From the NCBI GenBank assembly GCA_021298575.1, contig JAJTFM010000014.1, positions 20,801 through 84,800 of the forward strand: a stretch of 64,000 bases of DNA. The letters are read 5' to 3'. Below are positions 45,072 through 55,179 of the stretch, one piece after another. The position numbers were made by a program, and so were the translations under genes. The notes under the pieces were generated by a model. That model was not told where the DNA came from. It ran no database searches and saw nothing but the letters and a program-made list of their open reading frames with translations. Positions within the stretch are counted from its first letter, which is position 1. Each line of letters starts with the position of its first letter. The stretch comes from Saprospiraceae bacterium. Lineage in GTDB: Bacteria; Bacteroidota; Bacteroidia; Chitinophagales; Saprospiraceae.

Positions 45072-46004
45072 TCAGAAACCAAGGTTCCGGAGAGCTTCCT
45101 GCTGGGTAGCGAGAAATGCGCGGTGTTGTTCGGTGTCCGGATTGAATGGACGGTGGTGCAGGGCGGCGTTGATTTTTTCGAGAGCGTTATTGGTCTGTCT
45201 GGTACTTTCACTGAAATAGGTATTGGAAAAATATTCCCAGATATACGCCACCGCTACATCAGACGGATGAATCATATCTGCAGCATAGAAGCGGTAATCT
45301 CGCAGATCATCCAGCAGTATTTCATAGGCAGGGAAATAGTGTGCTTCCGGGATTTGCCGGCATACAGCTTCGCAGGCCAGTGATAGCACCGCCTTGCTTC
45401 GCTGGTTCTCAATCATCCCTTTGCGCAGGTGCCGAACCGGACTGACAGTCAGTATAAAGCGCATATCAGGGCTCTTTTCGAGCAGTTTGCTCAGGCAGCC
45501 GGTCAGTGTTTCAGTGACAAAATCAACCGACAGGCGGCGCGCCCCGAAGAAACTGTCGGGCATTTTGTGGTTGTTGGCCACAATTTTCCCGGTTTCGTTG
45601 AGATAGAATACGTCGGAGGTGCCGAGGGTAATCAGTACATGCGTTGCTTCATGCAGGAAAAGAGCAGATTCACGGTACTTCTCGTTCATTCCGGAGAGTG
45701 TTTCATCCGGATCTGGTTTGGCGAACTGACTGTGATGATCCCAGCTTCTCCACACACCCTGATTTTTAAAAATACTATCACTGGTATAAACGACGTTACC
45801 TTCGAGTAATTGAGCAAGTGAGCCTGCAATCGAATGAGGGTTATATACCACCCCGAACGGGTTGACAAGCGTTTTAAATCGCAGATCGTTTAAACGGGTG
45901 CCAATATGTTCGGTAAAGCATGAGCCAGACAGTAAAATCCTGTCTTTGTGACTTATTTGGAACGGGGACGCCACGCCTGGAAAAATGGTGCGAAAGGAGT
46001 TCAT
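45072..46004 (-). CDS. GSCFA domain-containing protein
   Basis: A 310-residue protein of the GSCFA family, an SGNH/GDSL-hydrolase-like group: MNSFRTIFPGVASPFQISHKDRILLSGSCFTEHIGTRLND carries the namesake GSCFTEHIG (about 27-35). VITLGTSDVFYLNETGKIVANNHK and ADMIHPSDVAVAYIWEYFSN near the end fit the later blocks with catalytic Asp/His. No signal peptide was seen. Family members may be esterases or acyltransferases, but no substrate is established. It is divergent from the 445-residue YbjN-like gene and convergent with recG. Confidence 0.88.
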   Translation of the reverse strand: MNSFRTIFPGVASPFQISHKDRILLSGSCFTEHIGTRLNDLRFKTLVNPFGVVYNPHSIAGSLAQLLEGNVVYTSDSIFKNQGVWRSWDHHSQFAKPDPDETLSGMNEKYRESALFLHEATHVLITLGTSDVFYLNETGKIVANNHKMPDSFFGARRLSVDFVTETLTGCLSKLLEKSPDMRFILTVSPVRHLRKGMIENQRSKAVLSLACEAVCRQIPEAHYFPAYEILLDDLRDYRFYAADMIHPSDVAVAYIWEYFSNTYFSESTRQTNNALEKINAALHHRPFNPDTEQHRAFLATQQEALRNLGF

Positions 46005-46058
46005 GAAATAGAATTTTATTTCGGTGCAAACTTGCTACTTTTGAGCCTTATTTTCTCT

Positions 46059-47396
46059 ATGAGCCTATTGAAAGATATTTTCGGCTGGATACATCCCGAA
46101 ACCGAACATAAGCCCGATATTGCTTTTGGTCGCTATACCGATATGTACAAGCCTGCGGGCAGATCCGTACATTTCGATCGTTCACTCGGGCACTTCGACA
46201 AGGGGGAGTTACTTGACTCCTACCGAAGTTTCTTTACGTACCTGACAGATGAACGCTCTCCGAACCATATTCATGTTCGGGATGAGGGTGATATAATCCA
46301 TTTTGAATTTTTTCAGGGGTCATGTCTGATCAGGGGCCATGCAGACCGTAACGGAGTACGGGCCGGGAGCAGGGTTGCACGCGCGGGCGATCTTAATGTC
46401 GGTTTTCTGCGGCAGTTGATGGAGGCCAATCACAGGCTCAGTTTCAGTCGTTTTGCGCTTGATAACGAAAATAACCTGTGTATAGTGTTTCAGACGGAAT
46501 CGCTGGATGCCTCGCCCCTGAAGTTGCTTCATGCCTTGCGGGAACTTGCCATCAATGCGGATAAAAAAGATGATTTGCTGCTGGATGAGTTCAAGTCGCT
46601 GGAGCCGGCACCCGATCAGTTTCGTATTGATATACCGCAGCAGGAGAAAGATATTAAATACGAATACTTCCGACAGGAAACAGAAGCGGCGTTATCTCTG
46701 CTGGAGGCCGGAAAGCCTGATTCCAATCAGTACCCGGGTTTATTCGCCTACTACCTGCTGAGTGTGGCCTACAAACTCGACTATCTGATACTTCCGGAAG
46801 GATTTATACTTGATGTACTTGAAAAGATTCACAGCGCATACTTCACCAAAAACCAGTCACCGCCGCAGGTCAGGCTGCAACAGGTGGTAAAAGAGTTCCG
46901 GCGTATGCTGAATCGCTCGAAGGAAGAGGTGCAGGCCGAGATGTATCGAACCAGAAGTACTTTTGGTGTCAGTCCTCCATTGCCTCACGGAAGTGTGATT
47001 GCACTGATTGAGAAAGAACTCCCCAATATGGATTGGCCGCTTGCCAACGGTCACGAAAAACTTGCTGAGGCCCTGCCGATGTATATCGTCAGTTACCTGC
47101 TTTTCCATCACGCGCCGCCTCCGCCCGACCGCGAATTACTCCATCTTTACTACAGGGTGGCCGAAAATGACTATTTTACCAGACTGGGGTTCAGCCGTTC
47201 GTTCCGCGACGGTTCGGGGCGCCCCGACAAGCGTGCCATTCGCGCCGAAATAAACCGGGTTCAGAACACATACAGCGGCGAATATCCAAAACTGAGGATC
47301 AACACGGACAAACTGGACTACTCTTCCGTTGCCATGTTTGGAAAGACATTTCTTCAGGCTGTCAGGGAAATTGACTTAAGCCGGCCTGATCGTTAA
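46059..47396 (+). CDS. Uncharacterised protein with YbjN/CesT-like N-terminal domain
   Basis: Not recognised as a named family. The start is MSLLKDIFGWIHPETEHKPDIAFGRYTDMYKP, preceded 15 nt by TACTTTTG; the track's extra 37 residues overlap the divergent GSCFA gene. Residues ~35-170 (FTYLTDERSPNHIHVRDEGDIIHFEF ... NNLCIVFQTESLDASPLKLLHALRELAINADKKDDLLLDEF) alternate strands and helices as in YbjN/type-III-chaperone-like domains. The ~260 C-terminal residues are mostly helical, with no membrane segment or signal peptide. It starts a two-gene operon, with the trypsin-like protease 12 nt downstream. It could be a substrate, regulator or adaptor of that protease; this is inference. Confidence 0.7.
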   Translation: MSLLKDIFGWIHPETEHKPDIAFGRYTDMYKPAGRSVHFDRSLGHFDKGELLDSYRSFFTYLTDERSPNHIHVRDEGDIIHFEFFQGSCLIRGHADRNGVRAGSRVARAGDLNVGFLRQLMEANHRLSFSRFALDNENNLCIVFQTESLDASPLKLLHALRELAINADKKDDLLLDEFKSLEPAPDQFRIDIPQQEKDIKYEYFRQETEAALSLLEAGKPDSNQYPGLFAYYLLSVAYKLDYLILPEGFILDVLEKIHSAYFTKNQSPPQVRLQQVVKEFRRMLNRSKEEVQAEMYRTRSTFGVSPPLPHGSVIALIEKELPNMDWPLANGHEKLAEALPMYIVSYLLFHHAPPPPDRELLHLYYRVAENDYFTRLGFSRSFRDGSGRPDKRAIRAEINRVQNTYSGEYPKLRINTDKLDYSSVAMFGKTFLQAVREIDLSRPDR

Positions 47397-47408
47397 TAAT
47401 ACTCCCTT

Positions 47409-48497
47409 ATGAGTGAATATCTCGACTTGTACAGACAAGTAATCGTCAAAATTGCCACGCCGTACAGTACTGGCACCGGGTTTTGTCTGAGCGACAGAAA
47501 CGTGATTGTCACCAACTATCATGTGGTGGAGGGTAACCTGTCCGTTATTGTGGAGGGTGCCGGCTTTGACAGGCAGCTGGTGAATGTATTGTATATTGAT
47601 GCCAGATATGATCTTGCCTTCCTGAGTGCTCCGTCAAGCAGCGGGACGCTCCCTGTGGTGAATCTCGGGGTGAATAAGACATTAAAGGTACTGGACAGGG
47701 TGACAGCGATTGGGCATCCGTTTGGCCTGAAATTTTCTGCCAAGAGTGGTGTGATTTCGAATACATCGGAGAGTATGAATGGAGTGCCTTACCTGCATAT
47801 TGATGCTGCGCTCAATCCGGGTAACAGTGGTGGGCCGCTGGTTGACACCGATGGGGATATAGTGGGTATCAACACCTTTGTAATGAGGGAAGGTGACAAC
47901 ACCGGTTTTTCACTTCCTGTCAGATTTTTGGCAGACACACTCGCTGCCTTTGAAAATGTCGGAGCAGTGATGTCTGCACGTTGTGCTGGTTGTATGTCGG
48001 TGGTCACTGAAGCGGCTATAGAGAATGAGCGGCTGTGCAACAGGTGCGGCCACAAGGTTCAGTTACCACATCAGGTGGATGAATATATTCCGTCAGGGCC
48101 AGCCAGAACCATAGAGCGTATGATCAGCAGTATGGGCCACGATACGGGACTGTGTCGCTCGGGTCACAATTCGTGGGAAATAAAGGAGGGTAGTGCAACA
48201 ATACACGTGATTTATCACGATAAATCGGGTCAGATTTATGCAGAAGCTGTACTGTGCGAGTTGCCGGGAGAGAATATCAAACCCTTGTATGAGTACCTGT
48301 TGAGGGAGAATTATAATAACAGCGGACTGACGCTGAGCCTTCACGACAGAGATATAGTACTTTCTTTTCTGATATTCGAGCAGTATCTGAATGAAGAGAC
48401 CGGCAAGCAAATGCTCTCCGATTTATCGCAGAAAGCGGATTACTACGACAATGTTCTGGTAGAGCAGTTTGGTGCCCACTGGAAAGACAAGTCCTGA
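47409..48497 (+). CDS. Cytoplasmic trypsin-like protease with zinc ribbon and YbjN-like C-terminal domain
   Basis: Residues ~1-185 are a serine protease of the trypsin/HtrA fold with a complete triad: H38 in TNYHVVEG, D68 in DARYDLAFL and S140 in NPGNSGGP. A zinc ribbon CAGC...CNRC follows (C192, C195, C210, C213). Residues ~225-360 form an alpha/beta domain (TIERMISSMGHDTGLCRSGHNSWEIKEGSATIHVIYH ... YEYLLRENYNNSGLTLSLHDRDIVLSFL) resembling YbjN/CesT-type chaperone folds. No PDZ domain or signal peptide is present, unlike DegP/DegS, so it is likely cytoplasmic. It is coupled to the upstream YbjN-like gene. The target is unknown; processing or quality control of a partner is plausible. Confidence 0.82.
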   Translation: MSEYLDLYRQVIVKIATPYSTGTGFCLSDRNVIVTNYHVVEGNLSVIVEGAGFDRQLVNVLYIDARYDLAFLSAPSSSGTLPVVNLGVNKTLKVLDRVTAIGHPFGLKFSAKSGVISNTSESMNGVPYLHIDAALNPGNSGGPLVDTDGDIVGINTFVMREGDNTGFSLPVRFLADTLAAFENVGAVMSARCAGCMSVVTEAAIENERLCNRCGHKVQLPHQVDEYIPSGPARTIERMISSMGHDTGLCRSGHNSWEIKEGSATIHVIYHDKSGQIYAEAVLCELPGENIKPLYEYLLRENYNNSGLTLSLHDRDIVLSFLIFEQYLNEETGKQMLSDLSQKADYYDNVLVEQFGAHWKDKS

Positions 48498-48507
48498 TAG
48501 TCCCGGG

Positions 48508-50394
48508 CTATTCGCCGGATATGGCTGCATCTATGACAATTTCCTGTTCTTCGGCCACATCCAGTTCCACCCTAAGGTTTTCGATGATAAAATCCTGGCG
48601 TTCGGGTGTGTTTTTGCCCATATAATAGTCCAGCACGTGGTCCAGCTTGGTATCTTCGGGCAGGATGACTGGATCGAGGCGTATATCTTCGCCGATGAAG
48701 GCACCGAATTCGCCGGGTGAAATTTCGCCGAGGCCCTTGAATCGTGTTATTTCAGGTTTTCCGCGCAGTTTTTTGATCGCCCCCTGTTTTTCGGATTCCG
48801 AGTAACAGTAAAATGTCTGTTGTTTGTCGCGTACGCGGAAGAGAGGCGTCTGCAGGATATACAGGTGTCCGTTGCGCACCAGATCGGGGAAGAACTGCAG
48901 GAAGAATGTCAGCATGAGCAGCCTTATGTGCATGCCATCCACGTCGGCATCTGTAGCTATGACAACGCGGTTATAGCGAAGGTCGTCGAGCGAGTCTTCG
49001 ATATTGAGTGCGTGTTGCAGCAGATTGAATTCTTCGTTCTGATAGACGATTTTCTTGGTAAGTCCGTAGCAGTTGAGGGGTTTTCCGCGCAGAGAGAATA
49101 CGGCCTGTGTGTCTGTATTCCGGGCTTTTGTGATAGAACCGCTTGCCGAGTCGCCCTCCGTGATAAACAGGGTGGTTCCGAGTTTCAGTTCATCGGTTCC
49201 TTTTTCATTGAGGTGGTACCGGCAGTCGCGGAGCTTTTTGTTGTGGACAGCCGCGGCTTTGGCTCGCTGGTTGGCGGTTTTTTTGATATCTGCCAGATCC
49301 TTGCGTTCACGTTCGCTTTGCTGGATACGTGCCTGCATTGCCTTGGCCACCTCCGGATTTTTGTGGAGGAAATCGTCCAGTGCCTTGGTCAGGAAGTCTG
49401 ACATAAATGTACGGACAGCCTGACCTTCAGGCGACATCCGTTCGGATCCCAGGCGCGTTTTGGTCTGACTTTCGAACACGGGTTCTTCTACGCGGACGCT
49501 GACTGCAGCTATGATACTTTCGCGGATATCCTTGGCGTCGTATTCTTTTTTGAAGTGAGTTCGCACGACTTTGACCAGTGCTTCGCGGAAGGCATTGAGG
49601 TGAGTTCCGCCTTGTGTAGTATTTTGACCGTTTACGAAGGAGTAGTATTGCTCGCCGTAGTGGTTTCCATGAGTAATTGCGATTTCCACATCTTCGCCGC
49701 GCAGGTGAATAATGGGGTATCGGATTACTTCAGTACCGGTTTTCTTTTCCAGCAGGTCGAGCAGGCCATTTTTGGATACGAAAGTTTTGCCGTTAAAGTG
49801 AATTTTCAGTCCGGCATTGAGGTAGGCATAGTTCCAGAGTTGCTGTTCCACATATTCGGGTACCCAGCGGTAATTTCTGAATAGTCCGTTGTCGGGCTTG
49901 AAAGAGACCAGCGTGCCGTTTTCCTCTTTGGTGGGTTCGAGTTTGCCTTCTTTTTTCAGGTTGCCAAAATTGAATTCGGCTGTTTTGCATTGTCCGTCGC
50001 GGAATGCGGTAACCTTGAAATATTCAGACAGTGCATTTACCGCTTTGGTACCTACCCCGTTGAGGCCTACTGATTTTTTAAAAGCCTTGCTGTCGTATTT
50101 GGCGCCGGTGTTGATTTTGGATACGACATCCACTACTTTTCCGAGCGGGATACCGCGGCCAAAGTCGCGAACGCTGACACCGTTTTCATTGAGAACAATT
50201 TCAACAGTCTTGCCATAGCCCATGGCAAATTCATCGATACAGTTATCGAGTACCTCCTTCAGCAGTACATATATTCCGTCATCGGGGGATGCTCCATCGC
50301 CCAGTTTCCCTATGTACATGCCTGGGCGCAGGCGAATATGCTCGCGCCAGTCAAGGGTTTTTACCTCATCTTCCGTATATTTGATTTCTGTCAT
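48508..50394 (-). CDS. parE: DNA topoisomerase IV subunit B
   Basis: A 628-residue type IIA topoisomerase ATPase subunit. The GHKL ATPase region holds [33 protein letters not shown] and [14 protein letters not shown]. The transducer follows. The Toprim region has [11 protein letters not shown] and [14 protein letters not shown], and the C-terminal segment is [13 protein letters not shown]. The [42 protein letters not shown] start and lack of a GyrB-type insertion fit ParE of Bacteroidota. parC is not adjacent. A TAAATTTG promoter lies upstream on the minus strand. Confidence 0.92.
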
Positions 50395-51195: not shown

Positions 51196-54100
51196 ATGAA
51201 AATTTCTGTTCTCCGGATGATTGCCTCCGGCATTCTCCTTCTCTCCTGCCTGCAGTCAGGCCAATCTCAGCAATCCATTGCCCGTCAGTGGAATGAAATA
51301 CTGATTCAGAGTATCCGGGAGGACTTTGCCCGCCCGCCTGTGCACGCACGCAATCTGTTTCATCTTTCCGTACTCATGTACGATATGTGGGCCGTTTACG
51401 ACACTACCGGGCAGTCGGAGACCTATTTCCTCGGGAAAACAGTGGGCAATTACACGTGCCCCTTCAACGGAATTCCCATTCCCGCAGATATTGAGGCTGC
51501 GCGGAGAGAAGCCATCAGTTATGCTGCATACCGGCTGCTGGCCCAGCGTTTTCAGAATTCCCCGAGGGCGTTTACCACCATCACCCGGCTTTTTGATTTC
51601 ATGGCGCAGCTCGGTTATCCGATTAATTTTAACAGTACCGACTATTCCACCGGCAATCCTGCAGCGCTGGGAAACTACATAGCCCTCCGCATGGCCGAGT
51701 ACAGCAATCAGGATGGTTCCAATGAACAGAACAACTACGTGCCAACTGACTATGTTCCTGTGAATACTCCGGTGAATGTGCTGCAACCGGGCAACAGTAC
51801 CATGACCAATCCGAATCGCTGGCAGCCGCTGGATCTGCCCGGCGCTATTGACCAGAACGGCAATCCGGTTGTCGCTATTCAGCGGTTTCAGAGTCCGGAA
51901 TGGGGTAGGGTTACGCCCTTCGCGCTGTCGGCATCCGACAAGGATACGCTGGTGCGGAATAATATTCCCTGGTATGTATATCACAATCCGGGCCCGCCGC
52001 CGCAGCTGAACACGAATCAGCAGGATGCGCAGTCGGAGGTGTTCAAATGGAACTACGCGCTGGTTTCTGCCTGGAGTGCACATCTGGATCCGGATGACGG
52101 GGTGACGTGGGATATTTCACCGGCGTCTGTAGGAAATAATACGTCACCTTATCCGGTGACCCTGGATGAGTATAAACAGTTTTACAATTTCGAGGGAGGC
52201 GGAGCGGCCGGAAATGGTCGGCCGGTTAATCCCAAAACGGGCTTGCCCTACGAACCCCAGCTGGTACCGCGTGGCGATTATACCCGGGTTTTGGCACAGT
52301 TCTGGGCCGACGGGCCAACCTCCGAAACTCCTCCCGGACACTGGTTTTCCATTCTGAACAAAGTCATGGATCACCCTGATTTCGTCAGGAAATTTAATGG
52401 CAAGGGTCAGATACTCAATCGGCTGGAGTATGATGTGAAGGCCTATTTTACGCTGGGCGGGGCAATGCATGATGCGGCTATTACCGCCTGGGGAATCAAA
52501 GGCTATTACGATGCAAGTCGTCCGGTGACCAACCTGCGCTACATGGCCCGTCTGGGTCAATCCTCTAATCCTGCGCTACCCCGATATCATCCGGGCGGAC
52601 TGCCACTGATACCCGGTTACATCGAGCTGGTGCAGGCTGGAGATACGCTGGCAGGGGTGAATGGTGTCAACGTGAACAAGATCAAGTTATACACCTGGGA
52701 GGGTTTCGGTCCGATCGCCAATCCGGCTACCGATTATGCCGGCGCCGGCTGGATACTGGCCGAAAACTGGATGCCTCATCAGCGAAAAACGTTCGTGACG
52801 CCGCCTTTTGCCGGCTATATATCGGGGCACTCCACGTATTCGAGAGCTGCTGCCGAAGCACTTACCCTGCTCACCGGTGATGAGTATTTTCCGGGCGGAA
52901 TGGGTGAATTTCATATTGCGGCCAACAGCGGATTTCTGTTTTTTGAGAAAGGGCCCAGCGTGGATGTTACCCTGCAGTGGGCCACCTATCGCGACGCATC
53001 CGACCAGACCAGCCTCTCGAGGATATGGGGTGGCATTCACCCGCCTTTCGATGATATCCCTGGTCGTATAGTGGGTGCCGAATGTGGTGTTGATGCCTAT
53101 CATTTGGCCAAAGAAATATTCTATAACGACGAAGACGGCGACGGGTACCTCGCATTTGAAGACTGCAATGACAATAACCCGGCCATAAACCCCGGTGCCG
53201 GAGAGTTGTGCAACGGGATTGATGATGACTGTGACGGAATGGTGGATGACAGTCTGACGGTGTTTACTTACTATGCTGACTCCGATGGCGACGGTTTTGG
53301 TAATGCTGATTTGAGCGTGAGTACGTGTGCGGATACGATTCCGGTCGGATATGTTGTTGCCGGTACTGATTGTTCGGACAGCAATCCTGTGGTTTACCCC
53401 GGTGCTGCAGAACTGTGCGATGGTCTGGACAACGATTGTAACGGCCAGATTGACGATGGCATCGTTTATTACACATATTATTATGATGCGGACGGCGACG
53501 GTTTCGGCAATGCCGATTCAAGTGTGAGTACGTGTGCGGATACGATTCCGGCCGGATACGTTTTGTCTGGCACGGATTGTTCGGACAGCAATCCTGTGAT
53601 TTACCCCGGTGCTGCGGAGCTGTGTGACGGTCTGGATAACGATTGTAACGGCCAGATTGACGATGGCATCCTTTATTACACATATTATTATGATGCGGAC
53701 GGCGACGGTTTCGGGAATGCCGATGCGAGCGTGAGTACTTGCGCGGATACCATTCCTGCGGGGTATGTTGTTGCTGGTACTGATTGTTCAGACAGCAATC
53801 CTGCAGTTTACCCCGGTGCTGCAGAGTTGTGTGATGGTCTGGACAACGACTGTAATGGTCAAATTGACGACGGTATCATTTATTACACCTATTACTATGA
53901 TGGAGACGGAGACGGTTTCGGCAATGCCGATTCAAGTGTGAGTACGTGCGCGGATACAATCCCTGCGGGGTATGTTGTTGCCGGCACCGATTGCTCTGAC
54001 AGCAATCCGGCTGTATATCCGGGTGCCACCGAGTTGTGCGATGGTCTGGATAACGACTGTAACGGTCAGATTGACGATGGCATCATCTACTACACATATT

Positions 54101-55179
54101 ACTCTGATGCTGACGGCGACGGTTTCGGGAATGCTGATGCGAGCGTGAGTACGTGTGCGGATACGATTCCCGTGGGATATGTTGTTGCCGGTACTGATTG
54201 TTCAGACAGCAATCCGGCTGTATATCCGGGTGCCACCGAGTTGTGTGATGGTCTTGACAACGACTGTAACGGCCAGATTGACGATGGCATCATCTACTAC
54301 ACATATTACTCTGATGCTGACGGCGACGGTTTTGGTAATGCCGACGCGAGCGTGAGCACGTGCGCGGATACAATCCCCGCGGGCTATGTTGTTGCCGGTA
54401 CCGATTGTACGGACAATGACCCGGCGATTTTCCCCGGTGCTGTTGAGCGGTGCGATGGTCTGGACAACGACTGTAACGGCCTGACTGATGACGGTATCAC
54501 CCTGACCTACTATTTCCGGGATACGGATGGCGACGGCTTTGGCAATACGGACAACTCCCTCCTGCTTTGTGTGCCAATAGATACCATTCCGGCTGGGTAC
54601 GTCGGTATATCGGGCGACTGTAACGATGCAAACCCGCTGGTTTATCCCGGTGCTCCCGAGGTATGCGATGACCTCGACAACGATTGTGACGGCCTGCCCG
54701 ATGACAGCCTTCCGTTTTACACCTATTATGCGGATGCCGATGGCGATGGATACGGGGATCCCGTTCAGGGTCTCGAGACCTGTCTGTCCGATGTGCCGCC
54801 GTCATTCGCTGCCAATAATCTGGACTGCGACGACAGTAACGCGGCGGTGAACCCGGCACAGATGGAACTGGCCGGCGATGGCCTTGATAACGACTGTGAC
54901 GGAGAAACCGACAATATTTCATCCACCACCGAGGCAGGCTGGTCGGTCCGGGCATACCCCAATCCGGTGTATGACTGGCTGACAGTGGAGTCGCAGTTGA
55001 GCGGAGCCGTGCAATATGAAATCACGGATGCGCAGGGCAGGCAGCTGCGTACGGGCGGGGCTGAATTCAGTGGTGGATTGCTTCGGATTTCCTTTGCCCC
55101 GGAGATGCCTGGAGTTTACCTCCTCCGGTTGAGGGAGCAGGGGGGACAGGCGCTTGTGGTCAGGGTGGTCAAAATGTAA
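51196..55179 (+). CDS. T9SS-secreted vanadium-haloperoxidase/PAP2-like protein with MopE repeats
   Basis: 1327 residues. A signal peptide (MKISVLRMIASGILLLSCLQSGQS) precedes a ~600-residue PAP2/vanadium haloperoxidase-like domain. All three signature blocks are present: KGYYDASRP (K435, Kx6RP), SGH (543-545, in YISGHSTYS) and RIWGGIH (R609-H615, Rx5H). Residues ~650-1240 hold nine repeats of the MopE-type metal-binding motif (DCxDxNPxxxPGAxELCDGLDNDCNGxxDD). The end (~1250-1327; VRAYPNPVYDWLTVES ... GVYLLRLREQGG) is a T9SS tail. Such enzymes act on halides or phosphoesters; which one is not decided here. It stands alone, with no obvious operon partner. Confidence 0.88.
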   Translation: MKISVLRMIASGILLLSCLQSGQSQQSIARQWNEILIQSIREDFARPPVHARNLFHLSVLMYDMWAVYDTTGQSETYFLGKTVGNYTCPFNGIPIPADIEAARREAISYAAYRLLAQRFQNSPRAFTTITRLFDFMAQLGYPINFNSTDYSTGNPAALGNYIALRMAEYSNQDGSNEQNNYVPTDYVPVNTPVNVLQPGNSTMTNPNRWQPLDLPGAIDQNGNPVVAIQRFQSPEWGRVTPFALSASDKDTLVRNNIPWYVYHNPGPPPQLNTNQQDAQSEVFKWNYALVSAWSAHLDPDDGVTWDISPASVGNNTSPYPVTLDEYKQFYNFEGGGAAGNGRPVNPKTGLPYEPQLVPRGDYTRVLAQFWADGPTSETPPGHWFSILNKVMDHPDFVRKFNGKGQILNRLEYDVKAYFTLGGAMHDAAITAWGIKGYYDASRPVTNLRYMARLGQSSNPALPRYHPGGLPLIPGYIELVQAGDTLAGVNGVNVNKIKLYTWEGFGPIANPATDYAGAGWILAENWMPHQRKTFVTPPFAGYISGHSTYSRAAAEALTLLTGDEYFPGGMGEFHIAANSGFLFFEKGPSVDVTLQWATYRDASDQTSLSRIWGGIHPPFDDIPGRIVGAECGVDAYHLAKEIFYNDEDGDGYLAFEDCNDNNPAINPGAGELCNGIDDDCDGMVDDSLTVFTYYADSDGDGFGNADLSVSTCADTIPVGYVVAGTDCSDSNPVVYPGAAELCDGLDNDCNGQIDDGIVYYTYYYDADGDGFGNADSSVSTCADTIPAGYVLSGTDCSDSNPVIYPGAAELCDGLDNDCNGQIDDGILYYTYYYDADGDGFGNADASVSTCADTIPAGYVVAGTDCSDSNPAVYPGAAELCDGLDNDCNGQIDDGIIYYTYYYDGDGDGFGNADSSVSTCADTIPAGYVVAGTDCSDSNPAVYPGATELCDGLDNDCNGQIDDGIIYYTYYSDADGDGFGNADASVSTCADTIPVGYVVAGTDCSDSNPAVYPGATELCDGLDNDCNGQIDDGIIYYTYYSDADGDGFGNADASVSTCADTIPAGYVVAGTDCTDNDPAIFPGAVERCDGLDNDCNGLTDDGITLTYYFRDTDGDGFGNTDNSLLLCVPIDTIPAGYVGISGDCNDANPLVYPGAPEVCDDLDNDCDGLPDDSLPFYTYYADADGDGYGDPVQGLETCLSDVPPSFAANNLDCDDSNAAVNPAQMELAGDGLDNDCDGETDNISSTTEAGWSVRAYPNPVYDWLTVESQLSGAVQYEITDAQGRQLRTGGAEFSGGLLRISFAPEMPGVYLLRLREQGGQALVVRVVKM
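53260..54500 (+). repeat. 207-nt in-frame tandem repeats encoding MopE motifs
   Basis: Period 207 nt (69 residues) measured between TATTACACATATTATTATG words at 53467 and 53674. Units 2-6 are nearly identical in protein (YYTYYYDADGDGFGNADSSV then STCADTIPAGY) and very similar at the DNA level, while units 1 and 7-9 have diverged. That pattern indicates recent in-frame duplication or homogenisation of the middle units. The copy number could change by recombination, and short reads could miscount it. Confidence 0.85.

Follow-up and report, generated by a model that had tools for sequence, protein, structure and literature searches.

Within the window, by which we mean the whole 64,000-nucleotide stretch of Saprospiraceae DNA analysed here, two neighbouring genes encode a trypsin-like protease of the HtrA type (P2) and a partner protein (P1), and each product carries a domain of the YbjN/CesT superfamily, referred to below as a TY-chaperone (TY) domain. 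Several lines of sequence evidence suggest that the two may constitute one functional unit, in which a cytoplasmic HtrA-type protease works with an adaptor or regulator, a reading to which we give slightly less than even weight. Taken with the comparisons to known systems, the evidence points to a previously undescribed protease-and-partner unit.

P1 (46059..47396, + strand) is a 445-residue protein with a TY-chaperone (YbjN/CesT-like) N-domain followed by an uncharacterised C-terminal half, and P2 (47409..48497, + strand) comprises 362 residues arranged as an HtrA-type trypsin-like protease domain, a zinc ribbon and a TY-chaperone tail. Between the stop codon of P1 and the ATG of P2 lie 12 nt, and both genes are on the + strand; the coordinates agree with those given in an earlier note on this DNA. 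Because the upstream neighbour (45072-46004), which we take to be a GSCFA-like gene, is divergent to P1, and the downstream neighbour (48508-50394), presumably a topoisomerase-IV-B-like gene (ParE, by eye), is convergent to P2, the pair reads as a two-gene unit. The sequence TAnnTTTG is a promoter box of Bacteroidota, and a match to it, TACTTTTG (46036..46043, + strand), is found 23 nt before the P1 start codon. Of the 31 P1 homologues checked, 13 have such a box in the 120 nt before the gene, compared with 0 of the 30 P2 homologues checked, in keeping with a single promoter before P1. Elsewhere in the window (51196-55179) we observe a secreted-looking protein of 1327 residues with about eight near-identical repeats, CDGLDNDCNGQIDDG...YYDADGDGFGNAD, of a metal-binding-motif type, which ends in a C-terminal sorting-like domain.

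The protease domain of P2 (about residues 10-175; 47436..47933, + strand) matches Pfam Trypsin_2 at E 1.1e-28 and also matches Do/HtrA models, and the nearest solved structures are of the HtrA/Deg type (HhoA, DegP-like and HtrA1). The complete triad proposed earlier, H38, D68 and S140, is correctly numbered and invariant in 31 homologues, as it is in a 28-member alignment, and the domain contains the oxyanion motif NPGNSGGP. P2 thus shares its protease domain, triad and GNSGGP motif with the HtrA/Deg enzymes (MEROPS S1C; DegP, DegS, HhoA), but it departs from them in having no PDZ domain by a Pfam scan at E<=10, no evident signal peptide and a short N-terminus that lacks the usual HtrA extension; it carries instead the zinc ribbon and TY tail, and it has P1 as a partner. 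The ribbon (47979..48050, + strand; C192-x2-C195 ... C210-x2-C213-G) is defined by four cysteines, C192, C195, C210 and C213, that are invariant in 31 homologues and again in the 28-member alignment, and Pfam zinc-ribbon models match members of the P2 family. Both the missing PDZ domain and the four-cysteine ribbon had been noted before, and both observations stand. The P2 N-terminus (MSEYLDLYRQVIVKIATP) runs directly into the protease domain and by eye does not resemble a signal peptide; nor is a hydrophobic N-terminal signal visible by eye in P2 or its homologues. Given this N-terminus and the four-cysteine ribbon, P2 appears to be cytoplasmic.

The feature that links the two proteins is the TY domain, which occupies about residues 44-188 of P1 (46188..46622, + strand) and about residues 228-360 of P2 (48090..48488, + strand). 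Taken alone, each protein gives matches in Pfam that fall under the gathering score (TY-Chap1 at E 0.0012 for P1; CesT at E 0.037 and TY-Chap1 at E 0.085 for P2), so that the earlier proposal of YbjN/CesT-like domains on both is sub-threshold for single sequences and becomes firm with family profiles. In searches of the PDB, the YbjN protein 2plg is the sole credible match to both the P1-domain profile (E 1.3e-4) and the P2-tail profile (E 3e-5). TY-Chap1 is found in 23 of 32 P1 family domains at E<=0.1 (best 2.9e-7), and YbjN in 6 of 33 P2 tails (best 6e-5), with TY-Chap1 and CesT matches also present among the members. Direct alignment of the P1 N-domain with the P2 tail by hhalign gives a probability of 97.5% (P 6.9e-12) and is co-linear across about 110 residues, while controls with reversed alignments, the P2 protease domain, the P1 C-terminal half and 13 neighbour families reach at most 1.4%. 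Each family also retrieves the other at E<=1 among 872 ORFs: the P1-domain HMM recovers 43 of 43 sequences labelled P2 (42 of them proteases, the other the standalone YbjN protein L117), and the P2-tail HMM recovers 41 of 41 P1 sequences. In an independent genome (G237), P1 is matched directly by the P2-tail HMM at 6.8e-7. Sequence marks common to both domains include a G-S/T turn and A-D-x-x-D near the C-terminal helix. These profile comparisons argue firmly that the P1 N-domain and the P2 tail are homologous to each other and to the YbjN/CesT superfamily. A lack of such similarity had been named as a finding that would count against the pair, and the searches found similarity; the earlier description of a similar fold was right that the domains are related, although the relationship is one of sequence homology. 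AlphaFold models, built with two sequences per alignment, have mean pLDDT of 33 for P2 and 42 for P1 and are unusable; secondary structure compatible with an alpha-beta3-alpha-beta2-alpha fold appears in models whose pLDDT is mostly below 50, and a fold search from the low-confidence P1 model places 2plg at rank 21 with E 0.68, which is noise level.

The distribution of the two genes indicates that they are retained together. Among 61 relatives, P1 is present in 39 genomes and a tail-bearing P2 in 38 of those 39, the only mismatch being an assembly that is 84% complete (G017). Of 36 congeners, 34 have the pair, and the well-covered G011 and G013 have neither gene. When 396 Bacteroidota genomes are sampled evenly, the 14 with P1 are also the 14 with the tailed protease, and the three extra matches to the P2 tail are short standalone proteins. 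A single-protein scan of genome contigs yielded one close relative only. Occurrence was sampled in Bacteroidota genomes and, beyond them, in plasmids and phages or viral contigs. The plasmid collection contains no P1 and a lone P2 in Bernardetia only, where a tailed P2 with no adjoining P1 lies on a megaplasmid (L120:7446-8525; NZ_CP147018.1). P1 and P2 sit side by side on one strand in 39 of 52 complete pairs, and in the other 13 they lie apart with both genes kept; the synteny search that the earlier note proposed for other Bacteroidota thus finds the linkage conserved. No third gene recurs beside P1 and P2, the divergent GSCFA-like gene being a synteny neighbour within the genus. That P2 is merely a PDZ-less HtrA paralogue adjoining an unrelated gene would fit a protease domain that is clearly HtrA-like, but co-occurrence, the conserved tail, the homology of the partner and the persistence of both genes after separation make this the least probable explanation, to which we attach very little credence.

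The pairs fall into two subfamilies, class A, which includes the window, and class B (G054, G058, G143, G166 and G241). Every sampled pair belongs wholly to one class, and G058 holds one adjacent pair of each. In a mirror-tree comparison with ParE as species marker, excess correlation between the P1 and P2 trees stems solely from the class A/B split, and within class A the ParE-controlled partial correlation is 0.09. Because ParE accounts for the tree similarity within class A, we claim co-inheritance and not residue-level coevolution; pair-specific coevolution beyond the subfamily split was considered, and the mirror-tree gives no evidence for it. Shared vertical descent, which explains most of the similarity between the P1 and P2 trees, weighs against a single functional unit, as do the 13 genomes in which P1 and P2 are not in one operon. 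The same observations bear on a rather improbable alternative in which the proteins share a pathway and a class of client without mutual binding, each TY domain homodimerising and binding the client. YbjN-family proteins are homodimers (PMC3575483, PMC5398634), and each of the two TY domains could form homodimers; the 13 separated pairs and the lack of pair-specific coevolution within the main subfamily would also be expected. This alternative is less easily reconciled with homologous domains on both proteins, with their frequent adjacency, and with the matched subfamilies in G058 and the class B genomes.

Patchy occurrence across the phylum, together with PADLOC matches to the P2 protease domain, raises the further prospect that P1-P2 serves in conflict or antiphage defence, as other pairings of a trypsin-like protease and a partner gene do. 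Predicted conflict systems do include TY-Chap domains and trypsin-like proteases (PMC9503650, PMC7159879), and the Trypsin-Trypco pairs of VMAP systems (PMC7159879) resemble P1-P2 in joining a trypsin-like peptidase to a neighbour from a small family. However, P1-P2 has no recurrent neighbour families, P1 has no PADLOC match and no Pfam match to Trypco1 or Trypco2, and the presence of the pair in 34 of 36 congeners also weighs against such a system. Viral contigs scanned for the P1 and P2 families contain no relative of either, and the P2 ribbon-tail segment has no match in phage records. A role in conflict is therefore very unlikely. The sole paper found that treats TY-Chap together with YbjN does not contain the word protease or trypsin in its open-access text (PMC9503650).

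P1 is less readily related to known proteins beyond its TY domain. Its C-terminal half (residues 190-445; 46626..47393, + strand), about 256 residues long, matches no Pfam or PDB entry and is predicted to be mostly helical. The earlier account of a helical half of about 260 residues holds as to the missing Pfam and PDB relatives, while its helicity is seen only in the low-confidence AlphaFold model. A second TY domain in this half was ruled out, since hhalign gives 0.5-0.6%. At the other end, the N-terminal peptide (residues 1-31; 46059..46151, + strand) consists of an amphipathic MSLLKDIFGW followed by the motif FGRYTDMYK. Amphipathic starts resembling MSFFxRLFG (window 46059-46091) are frequent among class A P1 N-termini, and three of five class B P1 proteins have the peptide GFFSxLF at the C-terminus (the ends in L034, L115 and L116), against a background for amphipathic terminal peptides of 8/663 at the N-terminus and 0/663 at the C-terminus. 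The FGRYTDMYK motif (window 46128-46151) precedes the TY domain in class A P1, with D28 and K31 in 29 of 32; it is retained in L110-L112, which are P1 proteins that lack the amphipathic start, and is missing from class B. The amphipathic peptides resemble terminal helices that bind membranes, for example the one in MinD. Among standalone proteins in the dataset, the best relatives of the TY domain are TY-Chap1/CesT-type proteins in two other Bacteroidota (L118:8649-9143 and L119:8630-9121), each adjoining a PspA/IM30-like gene, confirmed for L118 as PF04012. Their layout fits the chaperone-PspA adjacency described for CesT/Tir-type chaperones (PMC11237479). The terminal peptides and these PspA-adjoining relatives together give a hint of the membrane surface, and the suggestion that the P1 terminal peptide targets the membrane is to be read with P1 members being mutually related and several having no peptide.

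In the main rival to an adaptor or regulator role, P1 is a proprotein substrate that P2 binds through the TY tail and cleaves, freeing an active C-terminal half. By analogy this has a precedent in the nuclease-protease pairs of Hachiman and AVAST, where an upstream nuclease proenzyme is activated by a trypsin-like protease, and the gene order is the same (PMC12799240). Those pairs, however, combine an MBL-fold nuclease partner with a protease fused to defence enzymes, and P1-P2 has neither feature. P1 has no match to an MBL/lactamase fold in Pfam or PDB and shows no sequence relationship with the nuclease proenzyme or with any enzyme in these databases, and there is no obvious invariant linker between its halves. 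In addition, almost every member of the genus keeps P1 and P2, a pattern more housekeeping-like than expected of an activated effector. For these reasons we regard the substrate role as unlikely.

Returning to P1 as an adaptor or regulator, a plausible scheme can be proposed for how such a unit might work. The PDZ modules of HtrA enzymes serve peptide recognition and self-regulation, and in P2 the zinc ribbon and TY domain would take their place. The YbjN-superfamily proteins DR1245 and AmyR are dimers, and in type III secretion chaperones the YbjN-type fold wraps client segments (PMC3575483, PMC5398634). Homologous domains on the P2 tail and on its partner, considered alongside these dimeric relatives, suggest TY-TY docking, with the domains of P1 and P2 pairing as a heterodimer in the way that YbjN-superfamily domains dimerise. 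By this analogy, and given the co-retention of the genes, P1 plausibly docks on P2 via the TY domains, as the earlier note suggested. P1 might then deliver clients, presumably unfolded or linear stretches, to P2 or else keep P2 inactive, with its C-terminal half sensing or recruiting the client. More speculatively, the amphipathic peptide found at one end of many P1 proteins may tether the P1-P2 complex to the inner membrane surface. The most inclusive form of the proposal is a new, ATP-independent class of cytoplasmic proteolysis in Bacteroidota, in which a PDZ-less HtrA-type protease is gated by YbjN/CesT-type heterodimerisation with a dedicated client-recruiting partner, possibly at the inner membrane surface; we advance it tentatively and consider it doubtful in this full form.

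The composition of P1-P2 is not described in Pfam, NCBIfam, PADLOC or the open-access papers searched, and no known family covering both proteins was found in these libraries, as the earlier note, which recognised no described system, had supposed. The YbjN/AmyR/DR1245/TY-Chap1 superfamily (PF10722, PF22551; PDB 2PLG), to which the domains on P1 and P2 are homologous, consists mostly of small standalone proteins, whereas the domain is fused to a protease in P2 and to a new C-terminal half in P1. The dyads of CesT/Tir-like chaperones with PspA involve a chaperone-type domain related to that of P1 and P2, but no PspA lies near P1-P2, and the words protease, peptidase and trypsin are all absent from the text that describes the dyads (PMC11237479).

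An important consequence of this arrangement concerns the YbjN superfamily itself, whose members are widespread and stress-linked and are without a clear biochemical role. The fusion of a TY domain to a protease, and its repetition on the partner, offers a testable role in client delivery or protease control. Quality control in the bacterial cytoplasm is mostly credited to ATP-dependent proteases. If the proposed reading is true, P2 would be a cytoplasmic HtrA-type protease without a PDZ domain, and the YbjN superfamily would be tied to controlled proteolysis.
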